DNA of 64,000 bases from Gemmatimonadota bacterium (lineage in GTDB: Bacteria; Gemmatimonadota; Gemmatimonadetes; Longimicrobiales; Gaopeijiaceae). Both the position numbers and the translations under genes were made by a program. This document shows positions 16,924 to 34,693 of this stretch, one piece after another. Position 1 is the first letter of the stretch, and each line of letters begins with the position of its first letter. The notes beneath the pieces are model-generated. The model saw nothing but the letters and a program-made list of their open reading frames with translations, was not told the origin of the DNA and did no database searches. The stretch lies in contig JABDLS010000086.1 of NCBI GenBank assembly GCA_013002885.1, forward strand, positions 1 through 64,000, given 5' to 3'.

Positions 16924-18087
16924 ATGGATCACGAGGCTACGAAGGGCCTCTCGTTCGGCACCATCGCCATCCACGCCGGGGTCGAGCCCGAGCCGGTGAC
17001 CGGGGCCATCATGACGCCGATCTTCCAGACCTCGACGTACGTCCAGCCCGCAGTAGGAGAGCCTCGCGCGGGCAGCTACGACTACGGTCGGACGGCGAAC
17101 CCCACCCGCGAGGCGTTGGAGGCCAACATCGCCGCCCTCGAGGGAGGCACCCATGGCATCGCCTTCGCGTCGGGGCTGGCCGGCATCGAGGCCGTTGTGA
17201 AGCGGCTCTCGGCCGGTGACCACGTGGTAAGCGAGGAGAACACCTACGGCGGGACCACCCGCATGTTCAACCACGTGCTGAGTCGCCTGGGAATCGAGTT
17301 CTCGTACGTCGACTCCCGCGACACCCAGGCGGTCGCCGACGCAATGCGGCCCGAGACGAAGCTCGTGCACGTGGAGACGCCGACGAATCCGATGATGCGC
17401 CTCTGCGACATCGAAGCCATCGCCGCCCTCGCTCACGACGCCGGCGCCCTCCTCAGCGTCGACAACACCTTTGCCTCGCCGTACAACCAACGCCCGCTCC
17501 TGCTGGGAGCCGACTTCACGCTCCACTCGTCGACCAAGTACGTGAATGGGCACTCCGACCTCATCGGTGGGCTCGTGGCCGTCGCCGACGAGGGGCTGGC
17601 CGAGGACCTCTACTTCATCCGCAAGTCGACTGGGGCCGTGCCGGGGCCGATGGACTGCTGGCTGACGCTACGCGGCGCCAAGACGCTCCACGTTCGCATG
17701 GAGCGGCACAATGAAAACGGCCTGGCGATCGCCCGGTGGCTCGAAGACCACCCCAGGGTAGACCGGGTGTTCTACCCTGGATTGGAGAGCCATGAGCAGC
17801 ACGAGCTGGCGAAGCGGCAGATGTCGGGATTCACGGGTATGGTCTCCGTGGACGTAGGGACATTGGAGCGGGCCAAGGCCTTCACCGAGCACATGCAGCT
17901 CTTCGCCCTCGCAGAGAGCCTCGGCGGCATCGAATCGCTGGTCAATGTCCCGGCCCTCATGACCCACGCCTCCGTGCCAGAGGATCGACGTGAGGCCATG
18001 GGCATCACGCCGGGCCTGGTACGCCTTTCCGTGGGGATCGAAGACATCGACGACCTCATCGCCGACTTGGATCGGGTGCTCGGCTGA
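16924..18087 (+). CDS. metB: trans-sulfuration PLP enzyme (cystathionine gamma-synthase/lyase)
   Basis: HAGVEPEPVTGAIMTPIFQTSTYVQ; HSSTKYVNGHSDLIGG; SVGIEDIDDLIADLD. Confidence 0.9.
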   Translation: MDHEATKGLSFGTIAIHAGVEPEPVTGAIMTPIFQTSTYVQPAVGEPRAGSYDYGRTANPTREALEANIAALEGGTHGIAFASGLAGIEAVVKRLSAGDHVVSEENTYGGTTRMFNHVLSRLGIEFSYVDSRDTQAVADAMRPETKLVHVETPTNPMMRLCDIEAIAALAHDAGALLSVDNTFASPYNQRPLLLGADFTLHSSTKYVNGHSDLIGGLVAVADEGLAEDLYFIRKSTGAVPGPMDCWLTLRGAKTLHVRMERHNENGLAIARWLEDHPRVDRVFYPGLESHEQHELAKRQMSGFTGMVSVDVGTLERAKAFTEHMQLFALAESLGGIESLVNVPALMTHASVPEDRREAMGITPGLVRLSVGIEDIDDLIADLDRVLG

Positions 18088-18149
18088 ACGCCGAGGCGCC
18101 ACGCCCTCACGAGAGGTATCTTCGAACGAGGACGTGGAAGGGGAGTACT

Positions 18150-18176
18150 GAAACCGTGGATCGGGGTCGTGCGTAG
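18150..18176 (+). promoter_or_regulatory. putative ECF promoter upstream of M48 peptidase: GAAAC-N17-CGTAG
   Basis: GAAACCgtggatcggggtcgtgCGTAG, about 60 nt upstream of the ATG at 18237. Confidence 0.6.
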
Positions 18177-18236
18177 GGCCCCGAAGCGTCGCAGCCCTCC
18201 CCCGCGTGGGGAATTTCATCGCACGAGGACATAGAC

Positions 18237-19298
18237 ATGGCGGACGAGCAGGACATGAACCGGGACGAGCACGGCGATGGCATGGCCGGCGACGGGGACG
18301 ACGGCTTGAACGGTGGCGGCGGCAACGGCAACGGTCAGGCCCGATCGAAGCGCATCCTCACCGAGATCGCGCCCCACTCCTGGGAGCACCCAGCCGACAA
18401 GGCTGCGCTTCAGGCTCTCCGGCGGATCCCCGTCTTCGATGAGGTCCTCAAGAAGGTATTCGGCTTCTTCGGCGAGAAGCCCATCCGCCTGGCCTTCCAA
18501 GCGAATGCGGTGCGGGTGAGCGAGAACCAATTCGGCAACGTGTACCGGATCTATCAGGAGTGCCTCAAAACGCTCGACGTGGAGGAAGAGTATCCCCTCT
18601 TCATGTCCCAGACGCCCATCGTGAATGCCGGCGCATACGGGATGGAGCAGCCCTTCATCATTTTGAACTCCGGTACCGTTCGACTCCTGGAAGACGACGA
18701 GCTCGCCTACGTCATCTCCCACGAGCTCGGCCACATCATGAGCGACCACGTCCTCTACAAGACGATGACGGTCCTGCTCATCAACCTGGCCAACATGGGC
18801 TTCCCCATCGTGGGCCTCGCCGCCCGCGCGGTCCTGGTCGCCCTTCTCGAATGGTCCCGTAAGTCAGAGCTCTCGTGCGACCGCGCGGGGCTCCTCGGGG
18901 TCCAGGATCCCGAAGTGGTCATGCGCACCATGCTGAAGATGGCCGGCGGCGGGGAAACCGACGAGACGAGCCTCCAGGAGTTCATCGTCCAGGCCGAAGA
19001 GTACCGTCAGGGTGGCGACGTCGCCGACCAGGTCTTCAAGGTGCTCAACCTGCTGGGTCAGACGCATCCCTTCTACGTACTCAGGGTGTCCGAGCTCAGG
19101 GACTGGATCGAAGGCGGCGACTACGACCGCATCATCCGTGGCGAGTACTCACGCCGAGGCGAGCCCGACCCCGCGTATCAGGAAGATCTGCAGCAAGCCG
19201 CCTCGGCGTACGCCCAGGGCGCCAAGGACTTCCTGGACACGCTGTCGGAGGCGGCGCGCCGGGCGGGGTCGGACTTCATGAGTGGCCTCAAGCGATAG
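18237..19298 (+). CDS. M48 family metallopeptidase (HtpX-like catalytic motif)
   Basis: VISHELGHIMSDH (HExxH); SELSCDRAGLLGVQDPE. Confidence 0.9.
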   Translation: MADEQDMNRDEHGDGMAGDGDDGLNGGGGNGNGQARSKRILTEIAPHSWEHPADKAALQALRRIPVFDEVLKKVFGFFGEKPIRLAFQANAVRVSENQFGNVYRIYQECLKTLDVEEEYPLFMSQTPIVNAGAYGMEQPFIILNSGTVRLLEDDELAYVISHELGHIMSDHVLYKTMTVLLINLANMGFPIVGLAARAVLVALLEWSRKSELSCDRAGLLGVQDPEVVMRTMLKMAGGGETDETSLQEFIVQAEEYRQGGDVADQVFKVLNLLGQTHPFYVLRVSELRDWIEGGDYDRIIRGEYSRRGEPDPAYQEDLQQAASAYAQGAKDFLDTLSEAARRAGSDFMSGLKR

Positions 19299-19385: not shown

Positions 19386-20333
19386 TCAGGTCAACAGCAG
19401 CCTGATGCCCCCTGGCACGACCCTCACCTCGATGGGGAGCTGGCCTGCGGGCTCCCCGTCGATCTGCACGGGCACCTTCCCTGGGGACGACAGCTCGACG
19501 TGCGAGGCCGGAGCCCAGCGCGCAGCCCGGGCGCTCTGCAATCCGGATCCGAGCATGGACAGCCCCAGCAGGGGGAGCCGTGCCTTCACACCGCTCGATA
19601 CGGCGACGACGTCCAACCGCCCGTCGAAGGCATCGGCCGCACCGGCGATGGTCCCTCCGAAGGCGATATCCGCCACGTTCGCAACGATGACGCCTCCTAG
19701 CTCGGTCCAGACGTCGCTGTCGACGACCGCGCGCACCGGGGACTCCTGATACCGCGCGATGGACGCCGCCACTCCCGGGGCCCTGCGAACGAGTCCGAGA
19801 ATCCCCATCTGCCCCGTCCGGGCGCTGTTGAGGGCATCGATGACGACGGCATCGTAACCGGCGCCACACCAGAGAAGAAAGGGCCGATCGCCTCCAGCAG
19901 ACCGGACCAATCCGACGTCCACCGGTCGGGACGTGGCCCCGGGGGAACCATCCGATTTCAGATCGGATGCCTCCAGGGAGCGCGCCACCTCCACCGGTTC
20001 CGTGCGAAGGTTGAAAGCCGGAGCAGCGGCGTTGGCGGTACCTGAAGGGAGGAACCCGAGCTCGGGCAACTCGTGTGCGGTCCGACCGAGGCTCCACAGA
20101 CCGGTCAGCACCTCGTTCAGGGTGCCGTCCCCACCGACGGCAATCACCCGGTCGTAATCCGGCCCCCGCTCTGACGCGATCTCCGTGGCCTCACCCCGCT
20201 CTCGCGTCTCGGCTACATCAACGTTCGAAGGGTCGGACAGGGCGTCGGCGAGGGCAGCCGCACGGGATCGTCCCCCGCCTCGCCCGGAGACGGGATTGAC
20301 GACGAGCAGATAGGAGCGGGGGGCCCCGTTCAA
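19386..20333 (-). CDS. diacylglycerol/lipid kinase family (DagK/YegS-like)
   Basis: LLVVNPVSGRGGG; VIAVGGDGTLNEVLTGL; LGFLPSGTANAAA; QIDGEPAGQLPIEVRVVPGGIRLLL. Confidence 0.9.
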   Translation of the reverse strand: MNGAPRSYLLVVNPVSGRGGGRSRAAALADALSDPSNVDVAETRERGEATEIASERGPDYDRVIAVGGDGTLNEVLTGLWSLGRTAHELPELGFLPSGTANAAAPAFNLRTEPVEVARSLEASDLKSDGSPGATSRPVDVGLVRSAGGDRPFLLWCGAGYDAVVIDALNSARTGQMGILGLVRRAPGVAASIARYQESPVRAVVDSDVWTELGGVIVANVADIAFGGTIAGAADAFDGRLDVVAVSSGVKARLPLLGLSMLGSGLQSARAARWAPASHVELSSPGKVPVQIDGEPAGQLPIEVRVVPGGIRLLLT

Positions 20334-29916: not shown

Positions 29917-29943
29917 GAAACAGAGACGGCGCGGTCTGCGTAG
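29917..29943 (+). promoter_or_regulatory. putative ECF promoter upstream of sigma gene: GAAAC-N17-CGTAG
   Basis: GAAACAgagacggcgcggtctgCGTAG; same motif and spacing as 30708 and 18150. Confidence 0.65.
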
Positions 29944-29946
29944 GGC

Positions 29947-30624
29947 GTGGCGATGAGTACCGACACCGCAGCCCTGCCCCGCGCAGCCGCCTGGCACGCC
30001 AACCCGAGGCAGGACGAGAGTACCCTGGCCGCTCCGGATTACAAGACCCTGGACGACCGCGAGCTGGCCACCTGTGCTGCTCGGGGCGAGGAGCGCGCTT
30101 TCCGTGAACTCCTGGTCCGCTACGAGCGGCCCGTCTTCTCGTTGATCTATCGGATGGTACGCGATCGCACGCTGGCCGAGGATCTGGCCCAGGAAGCGTT
30201 CATCAGGGCCTTCAACGCCATCGACAGCTATAAGACCAGCTACAAGTTCAGCAACTGGATCTTCAAGATCGCCAACAACCACACCATCGACTACCTGCGC
30301 AAGCGGAAGCTCGACACCGTGTCGATCGACGGTTCGCCCCACGCGACGACCCAGGACGAAATAAGCCAGAGTCGGGTGGTGTTGGAGTCGGGCGGGGAGA
30401 ATCCCCACGAGTATGTGGAGCACAAGGAGCTGGGGAGCCAGATCGAGCAGGCCATCGGTGGCCTCCGGGAGGAGTACCGCGCCGTCATCATCCTGCGGCA
30501 CGTCGAAGGCCACGCCTACGACGAAATAGCCGACATCCTCGAGCTCCCTCTCGGCACCGTGAAGACGTACCTGCACCGGGCCCGTGGGGAATTGAGAAAA
30601 TCTCTGGCTCACCTGGCTACGTGA
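29947..30624 (+). CDS. RNA polymerase ECF-type sigma factor (RpoE-like)
   Basis: LVRYERPVFSLIYRMVRDRTLAEDLAQEAFIRAFNAIDSY...FSNWIFKIANNHTIDYLRKRK; VIILRHVEGHAYDEIADILELPLGTVKTYLHRARGELRKSL; ATG at 29953 possible. Confidence 0.95.
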   Translation: MAMSTDTAALPRAAAWHANPRQDESTLAAPDYKTLDDRELATCAARGEERAFRELLVRYERPVFSLIYRMVRDRTLAEDLAQEAFIRAFNAIDSYKTSYKFSNWIFKIANNHTIDYLRKRKLDTVSIDGSPHATTQDEISQSRVVLESGGENPHEYVEHKELGSQIEQAIGGLREEYRAVIILRHVEGHAYDEIADILELPLGTVKTYLHRARGELRKSLAHLAT

Positions 30625-30707
30625 CCGATGGTACGATCACCCTCCGCCTTGGAGCCATGCGACTTCCTGCGGCCCGCACACACGTGCCGGCAGGGGTACG
30701 GTTTCTT

Positions 30708-30734
30708 GAAACTCCGGCCCTCGCGCCCGCGTAG
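30708..30734 (+). promoter_or_regulatory. putative ECF promoter upstream of anti-sigma gene: GAAAC-N17-CGTAG
   Basis: GAAACTccggccctcgcgcccgCGTAG, 34 nt upstream of the GTG start, SD-like GGAG between. Confidence 0.7.
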
Positions 30735-30767
30735 TGCCAGCAGAGTGAATCCCGTAGGAGCAACACC

Positions 30768-32003
30768 GTGAACGACGCCATCCACAACCACCTGAGCGCC
30801 GTGCAGATGCAGGCGCTCCTCGACGGCGAGCTGCCCCGCCAGGCACGTTCGAAGGCCGAGGAGCACCTGGCGGCCTGCCCTCGGTGCGCCGGTGAGTTGG
30901 ATTCGTGGCGCGCGGTCTTCTCCGACCTCGCGGAGCTTCCCGCCCACCGCCCCCACGAGGGCTTCGTCCAGCGGGTCATGTCCGACGTGAAGGTGCCGGA
31001 GGCGCGGCCTCTGGGTGCCCGGCTGCGCGACGGAATCGCTGCCGCCTTCTCGGCTCACGGCAACAGCCACGTTCCCGGTGAGGTCCTTCAGGACTTCCTC
31101 GAGGGCTCGCTGGCGGCACGGCGTGCCGAGCGCATCGAGGCCCACTTGGGCCGCTGCTCCGCCTGCACGACCGAGGCTGACGCGTGGCTTGGCGTCATGA
31201 GGCGCCTGGACGCCCTCGAGGCCTTCGAGCCCGGCGAGGGTTTCGCCGAACGGGTCCTCACCGCGTTGGAGGTTCCGGACCGGTTGCCTCTGGCCGCGCG
31301 GATCCGGCAGACGCTGGACGCTCTGCTAGGCTCGCCGGCCCCGGACCACGTCCCGGCCGGGGTGCTCCAGGACTTCATCGATGGTGCCCTGCCCCTGGCC
31401 GCCTCGGCCCGGGTGGAGGCCCACGTCGGCGGCTGCGGTCGCTGCGCGTCCGAGCTTCACTCCTGGGAAGGGGTCGCGGTACGGCTCGAGGCGCTTCATC
31501 GCTTCGAGCCCTCGCCGGACTTCGGCGAGCGGGTCATGGTCGGGCTGAGGACCACCGAGGTGGCGGCACGGGAACCGGCTTGGAGCCGACTGGCCCACGC
31601 GGCTCGGGGCCGCGTGCGCCGCTTCGTTCCCGAGACGCGGCAAGCGGTGGCGGCTCTCTCCGGTGCGGCCGTCACACCCATGGTGGTCATTGGCCTCGCC
31701 GCGTGGGCGGTCCTCTCCCACCCCGCCGTGACGGTGGGGTCACTGGCGTCTTTCGCGTGGTGGCAGCTCACCGACCTTGCCACAGCGGCGCTTTCCGGGG
31801 CTGTGACCCTGGCGACGCAGAGCGCCGATGTGTTCGGCTTGCTCTCCGTTTTGGAGTCTCTGGCATCCGCGCCGGCGTTGGTGGCCGGGGGGGCTGTCGC
31901 CTATACGATGATCTGCGCGCTCGCCTTGCGGGTGCTGTACAAAAACCTCCTCGCACAACGATCCCAAGGGGGTCGCCATCCACATGTATCGACTGCTTCT
32001 TAG
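30768..32003 (+). CDS. anti-sigma factor with three tandem zinc-finger (ZAS/zf-HC2-like) domains and C-terminal TM region
   Basis: HxxxCxxC at aa 33-40, 126-133 and 219-226 with exact 93-aa spacing; hydrophobic C-terminus; directly downstream of the ECF sigma gene. Confidence 0.88.
   Translation: MNDAIHNHLSAVQMQALLDGELPRQARSKAEEHLAACPRCAGELDSWRAVFSDLAELPAHRPHEGFVQRVMSDVKVPEARPLGARLRDGIAAAFSAHGNSHVPGEVLQDFLEGSLAARRAERIEAHLGRCSACTTEADAWLGVMRRLDALEAFEPGEGFAERVLTALEVPDRLPLAARIRQTLDALLGSPAPDHVPAGVLQDFIDGALPLAASARVEAHVGGCGRCASELHSWEGVAVRLEALHRFEPSPDFGERVMVGLRTTEVAAREPAWSRLAHAARGRVRRFVPETRQAVAALSGAAVTPMVVIGLAAWAVLSHPAVTVGSLASFAWWQLTDLATAALSGAVTLATQSADVFGLLSVLESLASAPALVAGGAVAYTMICALALRVLYKNLLAQRSQGGRHPHVSTAS
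30789..31625 (+). repeat. three in-frame 279-bp tandem repeats (93 aa each) in the anti-sigma gene
   Basis: Units 30789-31067, 31068-31346, 31347-31625; conserved His and Cys positions spaced exactly 93 codons. Confidence 0.85.
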
Positions 32004-33582
32004 CGCCTTCGTCGCGCTGGGTCTCGCTGCCCTCGCCCTTCCAGATGGGCTCGACGCCCAGCTCCGTGAGATCGTCACCAAGAGCGTCTCCGCAAGCTCG
32101 TCGGGAGCATCGCTTGGGCTGACCTTCGCCGATCGGGGGGAGCTCGAACTGAGCTTCGATGGCGGTACCGTGTATCTCGATGGCGAGGCCATCGGGACGT
32201 ACGAGCGAGGCTCGGAGCTGGACACGGCGTGGCGGAGCCTTCTCGGAGAGGCCATGGCATTGGAGAACGGTGCGCTGGCCGAGCGTCTCGTGGCGTGGAG
32301 TAGCCCCGAACTGGGGGGTACCGCTGCCGAGGTGGGCCAGTCCGTGGACCAGGCCCTGGAGGACGCCCTCGAGGTCGCCGACGCCCAGGACGCCAACGAC
32401 GAACCGGGCTTGTCGGTTTCCGACGAGCGCACCCTCGCGAGAATTCTCCTGAACTCCGTGGGTCGCCTTGGCGTCCTGGAAGAAGCGTTGGAGGGTCTGT
32501 CGTCCGATCTCCGTATCCACGTCGATGAAGACGTGGTGATTCCTCAGGGCTCCGTGGTGGACGGGACCGTTGTCGTCATCGAAGGCACGCTCCGTGTGGA
32601 GGGTGAGATCCGTGGCGACGTGGTCGTCGTCGACGGAGCCATCGAGGTCGTCGAGACAGGGGTCGTCCAGGGTGAGGTGCGCATCGCAGACGCCCGTGTG
32701 CTCAGTAACGTCGGAACGATTCGCGGCGGGCTGGTGGACGTGCTCGAAGAAGAGCGAGAGGTAGAGGAAGAGGTCAGGGAGCAACTCCGCGAGGAAATCC
32801 GGGCGGAAATTCGACGGGATCTCAGAAACGAGATCCGCCAGGTGACACGAATGGAGCACGACGACGGCTTCTCCATCATGGCCCCCTTCCACGCCGTGGT
32901 GCGTGGTGTGGGCGGCGTACTCGAGAAGATGGTCATGATCTTCATCCTCGGGCTCGTCGGCGCCGGCTTCCTGGCCTTCGCGGGTGAGAACATGGAGACC
33001 ATCGCGGAGACGGCTCGACGGTCGCCCGGTCGCTCGGCCATGGTGGGGCTGGCCGGCAGCTTCCTCCTGATCCCGGTGTGGATCCTGGGGCTCATCGCCC
33101 TTCTGGTCTCCATCGTGGGAATTCCAGTGGCCATCGCATGGGCTCCCCTCTTCCCGGTGGCGGCGGGTCTGGCCGCCCTTCTTGGCTACCTCGCCGTGGC
33201 CCAGAACACCGGCGAGTGGCTCGCGGACAGCAACTTCCCCTGGACGGGGTGGATCCGGAAGACGAATCCGATCTTCACCTTGGTGGCTGGACTTCTCGGA
33301 CTCGTCCTCGCGTTCATGGCCGGTCACCTGGTCTCCATCCTGCCCTTCCTGGGCTTCATCGGAAATCTGCTCTTCGCGGCGGGCGTCATCATCACCATTG
33401 CGGCCATCCAGATCGGCTTCGGCGCGGTACTGCTGACCCGGGGTGGACGCAGGAAGGAGTACTACGCGGCGTACGATCCAGATGCAGCCTGGGAGGCCGC
33501 CATGAATGTGGATGTAGACGAGGGCCCCGGTACGGGTACCGGTGCTTCGTCAACGGGAGAGGGTTCGACGAATGATGCGTAG
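31984..33582 (+). CDS. polymer-forming (bactofilin-like beta-repeat) membrane protein with charged coiled coil and TM segments
   Basis: IHVDEDVVIPQGSVVDGTVVVIEGTLRVEGEIRGDVVVVDGAIEVVETGVVQGEVRIADARV; EEEREVEEEVREQLREEIRAEIRRDLRNEIRQ; several TM helices. Confidence 0.8.
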   Translation: MYRLLLSAFVALGLAALALPDGLDAQLREIVTKSVSASSSGASLGLTFADRGELELSFDGGTVYLDGEAIGTYERGSELDTAWRSLLGEAMALENGALAERLVAWSSPELGGTAAEVGQSVDQALEDALEVADAQDANDEPGLSVSDERTLARILLNSVGRLGVLEEALEGLSSDLRIHVDEDVVIPQGSVVDGTVVVIEGTLRVEGEIRGDVVVVDGAIEVVETGVVQGEVRIADARVLSNVGTIRGGLVDVLEEEREVEEEVREQLREEIRAEIRRDLRNEIRQVTRMEHDDGFSIMAPFHAVVRGVGGVLEKMVMIFILGLVGAGFLAFAGENMETIAETARRSPGRSAMVGLAGSFLLIPVWILGLIALLVSIVGIPVAIAWAPLFPVAAGLAALLGYLAVAQNTGEWLADSNFPWTGWIRKTNPIFTLVAGLLGLVLAFMAGHLVSILPFLGFIGNLLFAAGVIITIAAIQIGFGAVLLTRGGRRKEYYAAYDPDAAWEAAMNVDVDEGPGTGTGASSTGEGSTNDA

Positions 33583-34408
33583 GTCACTTGTGGCTGCCAC
33601 GGCAGCGCTCTTGATGGTTCCTCTGGCCGTCGAGGGCCAGAATTGGAAGACCGTGACCATGTCCCAGCGACTCGGGGGCGAAGACGATCTGAGGGTGTCC
33701 GTGCGCTACGGAGCGGGGCTCTTCTCGATTCGGTCCGCGGAGGGAGGCCTATTGTACCGGATGCACCTCGAGTACGACGAGGATCGGTTCGAGCCAGTAG
33801 CGGAGTACACGGGCAACCGATTGGAGTTGGGTGTGGAGACCCGGCGGCGCGGGCTCGACATCGACACCGACGAAGCCGGGGAGCTTCGACTCGAGCTTGC
33901 CAGAGGCATTCCGATGGACCTCGACCTCGAGTTCGGCGCCGTGAAAGCCGAATTGGACCTCGGTGGTCTCGCCCTCACCGACCTGGACCTGAGCACCGGC
34001 GCATCGGAGTCCGATGTCGACGTGTCGGAGCCCAATCCGAGTCGCATGGAAACCGCCCGGTTCGAGGTGGGTGCCGCCGAGTTCACCGCCCGGAATCTGG
34101 GCAACCTCAATGCCGACCGCATCGAAGTCGACGCGGGGGTCGGCTCCATCTCCCTCGGGCTCGAAGGTCGATGGCAGAGAGACGCCGAACTGGACATCGG
34201 CATGGGACTGGGGTCGCTGGAGCTACGCATCCCGGAAGGGTTGGGTATTCGGCTACGCAAGAAGAGCTTTCTGACGTCTCTCGATTCCCAGGGGCTCGTC
34301 AAGCGCGGCGACGTGTACGAGTCGTTGGATTGGGATCGCGCGGACCGCCGCGTGAGCATCGAGCTCGACGCCGCGTTCGGCAGCGTATCGGTGGTCTGGA
34401 TCAACTAG
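33572..34408 (+). CDS. secreted toastrack/LiaF-C-like protein
   Basis: Signal peptide MMRRSLVAATAALLMVPLAVEGQ; repetitive beta pattern ending VDAGVGSISLGLEGRWQRDAELDIGMGLGSLELRIPEGLGIRL...AAFGSVSVVWIN. Confidence 0.7.
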   Translation: MMRRSLVAATAALLMVPLAVEGQNWKTVTMSQRLGGEDDLRVSVRYGAGLFSIRSAEGGLLYRMHLEYDEDRFEPVAEYTGNRLELGVETRRRGLDIDTDEAGELRLELARGIPMDLDLEFGAVKAELDLGGLALTDLDLSTGASESDVDVSEPNPSRMETARFEVGAAEFTARNLGNLNADRIEVDAGVGSISLGLEGRWQRDAELDIGMGLGSLELRIPEGLGIRLRKKSFLTSLDSQGLVKRGDVYESLDWDRADRRVSIELDAAFGSVSVVWIN

Positions 34409-34456
34409 CCGGGCAAGCAACCACCAGACGAGCGGACCACCGCTCTGGAGATCGAC

Positions 34457-34693
34457 ATGATTGGTTCACTTCTCACCTTCTTCGCAGTCGGCCTCGTCAC
34501 GATTCTGGTCGCGGGCGTGGTGCTGAGCGTGATCGGTGTGGTCTTTTCGCTCACGCTTGGCTTGGCGTCCTTCCTGCTCTTGAAGGTGGCGCCCGTCCTT
34601 CTGGTGGGATGGATCGTGGTGAAGATTCTGGAAAAGAGGCGGAGTGGTGACTCGCTGTCGGCGGCCGACCGCCGCTGGCTCGACGGCGACTAG
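34457..34693 (+). CDS. small (78 aa) membrane protein
   Basis: Two hydrophobic segments, charged C-terminus (KILEKRRSGDSLSAADRRWLDGD); same direction, 48 nt after the toastrack gene. Confidence 0.7.
   Translation: MIGSLLTFFAVGLVTILVAGVVLSVIGVVFSLTLGLASFLLLKVAPVLLVGWIVVKILEKRRSGDSLSAADRRWLDGD

Follow-up and report, generated by a model that had tools for sequence, protein, structure and literature searches.

The analysed stretch of DNA (the window; 64,000 nucleotides, contig C34 of the Gemmatimonadota metagenome-assembled genome G000) carries five consecutive open reading frames on the forward strand. They encode an extracytoplasmic function (ECF) sigma factor (SIG), an anti-sigma factor (ASF), a membrane protein with a weakly bactofilin-like beta-repeat (POL), a secreted toastrack protein (TOAST) and a 78-amino-acid hairpin membrane protein (TM78). 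They are likely to form the central operon with which Gemmatimonadota run an ECF-driven, phage-shock-like response to envelope stress. Gene order, protein folds and the conservation of both promoters and target genes were shown by computation. All five reading frames were found where the original prediction had placed them, in one direction, and the overlaps it described are present as well: 20 nucleotides (nt) between ASF and POL (31984-32003) and 11 nt between POL and TOAST, with the TOAST ATG at 33572. Position 29917, given there as the left border, is not a gene start; it is the first base of the promoter P1. The features of the locus are the following.

29917..29942, + strand: P1, predicted ECF promoter of SIG (GAAAC-N17-CGTA)
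29953..30624, + strand: SIG, ECF sigma factor (ATG start set by comparison with relatives; alternative start GTG at 29947)
30708..30733, + strand: P2, predicted ECF promoter of the ASF-POL-TOAST unit (GAAAC-N17-CGTA)
30768..32003, + strand: ASF, anti-sigma factor (three zf-HC2 stretches, two transmembrane helices)
30777..31007, + strand, approximate limits: first anti-sigma domain (ASD1) of ASF (HxxxCxxC motif and domain tree)
31056..31286, + strand, approximate limits: second domain (ASD2) of ASF (same evidence)
31335..31565, + strand, approximate limits: third domain (ASD3) of ASF (same evidence)
31984..33582, + strand: POL, membrane protein with a weakly bactofilin-like beta-repeat (Pfam, AlphaFold2 (AF2) model, profile comparison)
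33572..34408, + strand: TOAST, secreted toastrack protein with a signal peptide (AF2 and Foldseek)
34457..34693, + strand: TM78, 78-amino-acid hairpin protein with two transmembrane helices (open reading frame; no Pfam family)

Gene order across the phylum

Sixty-one neighbourhoods were compared, 60 from families f1-f9 of the phylum and the additional locus L033. SIG, POL and TOAST were on the same strand and in a single order in all 55 loci of f1-f9 where the three could be scored, a count which measures what travels with POL, since the loci were picked through POL matches. The predicted association with the sigma factor is thereby found in other genomes as well, and the five-gene arrangement is not a chance one, because its order is conserved across the phylum. 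Of 298 phylum genomes, 222 have a relative of POL; TOAST was present in 68 of 121, with few exceptions as a single clear copy. TM78 was detected in 40 of the 61 loci and is the least conserved member of the operon.

The flanking genes UbiE and Mrp are also kept (51 and 55 of the 61 loci, respectively), as would be expected if the whole segment were merely evolving slowly and SIG-ASF and POL-TOAST were functionally unlinked. We regard such an inherited neighbourhood as quite improbable. Both flanking genes are oriented opposite to the operon and have no promoter motif, whereas the genes between them share one strand, overlapping reading frames and a common conserved P2. In addition, ASF, POL and TOAST cohere in genomes where SIG has moved.

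Sigma factor, anti-sigma factor and their predicted promoters

SIG consists of sigma70 region 2 (PF04542, residues 55-119) and region 4 (PF08281, r4_2, residues 163-213) with no sigma3 domain, which is the composition of ECF (group IV) sigma factors. It scored above the cut-off of the superfamily model TIGR02937 and under the NCBIfam SigW equivalog cut-offs (165.3 vs 209 bits and 150.9 vs 243.1 bits). The nearest relative in the PDB is SigW of Bacillus subtilis (5wuq, E=4.8e-34). Residues K170, T171 and R175 of SigW read the pair at -31, A-34 and G-35, and the -35 consensus of SigW is TGAAAC (PMC6713349). All three residues are identical in SIG and in the aligned sigma homologues, and these base-reading residues combined with the GAAAC and CGTA elements upstream correspond to a SigW-type promoter specificity.

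Of 58 loci, 37 have the motif GAAAC-N16/17-CGTA ahead of SIG, where dinucleotide-preserving shuffles would give 0.09. The gap between SIG and ASF has it in 54 of the 58, 52 of them with a spacer of 17, and here 0.06 would be expected. Control windows of equal size behind POL, TOAST, UbiE and Mrp, approximately 60 for each gene, gave 0, 1, 0 and 0 matches, respectively. G000 contains 25 exact N17 sites, compared with 5 for a reversed control pattern. The CGTA of P1 lies only 10 nt upstream of the SIG ATG (window 29936-29955, and loci of the same genus), and the SIG mRNA may for this reason be nearly leaderless. There are 23 genes with a sigma region 2 in G000, and SIG alone is preceded by the motif; the other ECF genes were rejected as its owners, as 0 of 22 have it within 600 bases upstream. 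Because SIG is the only bearer of the motif among the 23 and has the base-reading residues of SigW, the assignment of the GAAAC/CGTA motif to SIG is well supported on sequence grounds.

The triple-zinc-finger anti-sigma factor of the original prediction was borne out. ASF has three 93-residue repeats, each with a first helix, an HxxxCxxC motif (residues 33, 126 and 219; three Pfam zf-HC2 stretches) and a GFxxRVM-type helix, followed by a pair of transmembrane helices predicted by a transmembrane scan at approximately residues 293-311 and 369-387. With Hx3Cx2C in a helical anti-sigma domain (ASD) three times over, and the SIG gene adjacent, it has the sequence features of class I (ASD) zinc anti-sigma factors, and would be expected to bind and inhibit SIG. 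A phmmer search of ASF against the PDB gave a sole match, DdvA, at E=0.26. The number of ASDs differs among relatives: three in the genus of the window, two across the greater part of family f1 and a single one in the remaining families. In genus g2 and certain allied groups ASF is retained but its zinc motif is lost, and at the distant loci L087, L088, L091 and L093 the protein between SIG and POL consists of the last ASD helix (GFxDRVMARV) and the transmembrane pair, without a zinc motif. In the domain tree, where many forks are weak, ASD1 grouped with the first copy of relatives that have two domains, and ASD2 and ASD3 with the second copy of these. Mean pairwise identities within the genus were similar for copies 1, 2 and 3 (56, 50 and 46%, respectively), so all three domains look constrained.

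Predicted regulon and proposed response

Genes downstream of exact motif sites were compared in six close genomes. Such sites precede SIG, an M48 peptidase gene and a CesT/Tir-family gene in 6/6 genomes, ASF and small hairpin membrane proteins in 5/6, and a TolC-type outer-membrane gene in 4/6. The CesT/Tir gene is followed by pspA in all six, and the pspA of this operon is the only one in G000. Behind the TolC gene come a MacA-like gene and MacB-like permeases, and permeases of the MacB/FtsX type, assigned by Pfam, are also found behind exact sites. In wider samples of the phylum, 13 of 30 CesT-PspA loci have the motif ahead of the operon (0.02 expected; the six genomes not included), and 19 of 30 M48 loci have it ahead of the gene (0.03 expected; the window's own locus included). 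In the window the M48 features are these.

18150..18175, + strand: predicted ECF promoter of the M48 protease gene (motif conserved upstream of M48 genes)
18237..19298, + strand: M48-family metalloprotease, predicted regulon member (Pfam Peptidase_M48, 4.9e-23)

The pspA operon of B. subtilis is SigW-dependent (PMC3498285), and both CesT/Tir-PspA dyads and toastracks are described Psp partners (PMC11237479). The natural reading of the predicted set, with PspA and CesT/Tir, M48 and MacAB-TolC, is an output against envelope stress. The envelope-stress function first proposed from the operon is thus supported from two sides, by the co-occurrence across the phylum and by a predicted regulon which would independently make up an envelope-stress set. 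For a poorly studied phylum this provides a concrete, testable set of predicted envelope-stress genes behind a defined promoter. An ECF sigma factor is also linked to PspA and to the orphan toastrack fold through conserved promoters, beyond gene neighbourhood.

There were several further observations around the motif sites. A 411-amino-acid protein of no known family stands behind the motif in 4/6 genomes; at one locus of G000 (L290, contig C134) genes for 411- and 747-amino-acid proteins of unknown function follow a site. In G000 and G266 the motif also stands ahead of several genes for MacB/FtsX-type permeases (L103, L114, L158, L160, L162, L168). Membrane hairpin proteins of approximately 70 amino acids, reminiscent of TM78, recur behind it (L104, L115, L122, L148, L157, L163, L194), with two copies in some genomes. 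The distance between the M48 and toastrack genes is approximately 11-15 kb in the window and also in distant families (G025:C2, G027:C29, G033:C28, G048:C92). Site-2-type proteases of family M50 were found as well. On contig C13 of G000 an exact motif (20013-20038, L096) falls within the terminal part of a cdsA-like gene that stands before dxr, and is followed by an M50 protease of the RseP type (17336-18628); this arrangement, seen in G000 only, would place a site-2 protease under SIG.

We propose that membrane-bound ASF would hold SIG, and that a disturbance of the envelope would free it, most likely via proteolysis of ASF. Free SIG would then direct RNA polymerase to GAAAC-N17-CGTA promoters. 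It would raise its own synthesis through P1, a positive loop, and drive ASF-POL-TOAST through P2, giving negative feedback by way of ASF. The same promoters would serve a membrane-repair regulon of CesT/Tir-PspA, the M48 protease, MacAB-TolC-type efflux and the small hairpin membrane proteins.

A number of findings weigh against this scheme. Two closed genomes, G017 and G075, have SIG at another place, with ASF-POL-TOAST still together, and the reduced genomes G034, G096 and G110 are without POL and TOAST. In genus g2 (L049, L053, L056, L057, L227, L230, L251, L256-L258, L260), SIG, PspA and M48 no longer have the motif upstream, though ASF still does, and regulon membership is therefore not fixed. 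In addition, related ECF sigma factors could read the same motif. Simple gapped-word counting gave no replacement promoter motif before SIG, PspA and M48 in genus g2. A changed sigma specificity in this genus was rejected: the -35-reading helix is unchanged and P2 is kept.

POL, TOAST and the comparison with known systems

POL, the bactofilin-like putative polymer-former of the original prediction, has the beta-repeat, coiled coil and transmembrane helices described there, and its likeness to bactofilins is weak. POL comprises a signal peptide, an N-terminal beta domain, helices, a beta-helix (residues 176-252), a coiled coil (253-289) and approximately five transmembrane helices. The Pfam bactofilin score (PF04519) was 24.0 bits, under the cut-off of 27.9; a match to this family was found in 30 of 53 relatives, and the POL profile matched the bactofilin 6ria weakly (E=7.5e-4). 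The AF2 model reached a mean predicted local distance difference test score (pLDDT) of 86.7 and a predicted template modelling score (pTM) of 0.51, which leaves the domain arrangement uncertain, and the whole-protein model had no fold match in the PDB at E<=0.001. Positive charges stand after the first transmembrane helix, before the fourth and at the C-terminus. This charge pattern and the signal peptide predict that the beta-repeat lies outside the cytoplasm, in the periplasm.

The toastrack-like product called from the reading frame at 33572 was confirmed by its fold, though not by the Pfam scores, which stayed under both toastrack cut-offs (20.7 vs 22 and 18.1 vs 29 bits). The AF2 model (pLDDT 90.8) has the toastrack beta-helix (DUF2154/DUF4097/DUF2807) and found 4qrk as the best Foldseek match (E=7.9e-15), and also 3lyc, 3pet and 4opw. 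Among 41 relatives (E<=0.01), Toast_rack_N was present in 30 and LiaF-like_C in 36. The C-terminus of LiaF has this fold, and a survey of phage-shock proteins ties toastracks to Lia systems (PMC11237479), so TOAST might be thought to take the part of LiaF towards a two-component system. This we find hardly probable at all: the conserved unit, with UbiE and Mrp as fixed neighbours, has no histidine kinase or response regulator, and TOAST has a signal peptide and no transmembrane domain, whereas the toastracks of the survey are mostly attached to transmembrane segments and predicted to be cytoplasmic (PMC11237479).

POL and secreted TOAST would most likely form an extracytoplasmic assembly which reports on, or buffers, the state of the envelope beside ASF. 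We favour such a role as extracytoplasmic co-regulators because the two genes follow ASF even where SIG has left. They may equally be outputs, because they sit behind a sigma-type promoter. In that case ASF alone would sense stress, and POL and TOAST would be structural or membrane-stabilising effectors made on demand, a serious possibility to which we give somewhat less than an even chance. Both genes lie behind the near-universal P2, and PspA, efflux and protease of the same predicted regulon are ordinary effectors. However, these other predicted targets sit elsewhere in the genome, POL and TOAST stay with ASF after relocation of SIG (G017, G075), and the overlaps of 20 and 11 nt suit regulators made in stoichiometric amounts. 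As a tentative extension of the co-regulator role, rather unlikely in its entirety, the tandem anti-sigma domains, from a remnant to three by lineage, might act as a sponge that binds several SIG molecules and sets a tunable threshold, read out by a toastrack and beta-repeat membrane assembly signalling to ASF in an ECF-run phage-shock response. The natural series of ASF proteins, whose shared membrane anchor carries anything from three ASDs through two and one down to almost none, amounts to a ready-made experiment in how anti-sigma valency sets the threshold of a response.

RsiW, the anti-sigma factor of SigW, has one anti-sigma domain and one transmembrane helix, while ASF has three and two, respectively. 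The SigW-RsiW system of B. subtilis is otherwise close: SigW is the nearest solved relative of SIG, with the same -35-reading residues and the GAAAC element, the anti-sigma factor is of the membrane zinc type, and pspA is among the targets (PMC3498285), as is predicted here. SIG differs in falling under the SigW equivalog cut-off, and in having POL and TOAST in its operon. The toastrack and Psp-Lia partners (PMC11237479) share the toastrack fold (4qrk, 4opw) and the CesT/Tir-PspA dyad. However, TOAST is secreted and not joined to the transmembrane domains of PspC or LiaF, the regulators are an ECF sigma factor and a zinc anti-sigma factor, and PspA is outside the operon as a predicted regulon member. 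Unlike LiaFSR, the conserved unit between UbiE and Mrp has no histidine kinase and response regulator with a membrane-anchored LiaF. With bactofilins (PF04519) POL shares a short beta-repeat and the 6ria profile match; it differs in its sub-threshold Pfam score, the shortness of the repeat, the signal peptide, the coiled coil and the transmembrane helices.

The survey (mSystems 2024, PMC11237479) refers to toastrack operons to which a sigma factor is linked, and its main text has no mention of Gemmatimonadetes or bactofilins. The original prediction did not recognise the gene set as a named system. Open-access papers on bactofilin or toastrack with ECF or anti-sigma factors in Gemmatimonadota gave no description of the set, subscription papers being outside the search. 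Pairs of a zinc anti-sigma and an ECF sigma factor are already known, as are toastracks in stress systems and the control of pspA by ECF sigma factors. As far as the searchable papers show, the combination has not been described, nor have its phylum-wide conservation with a promoter code and the series of multi-domain anti-sigma factors.

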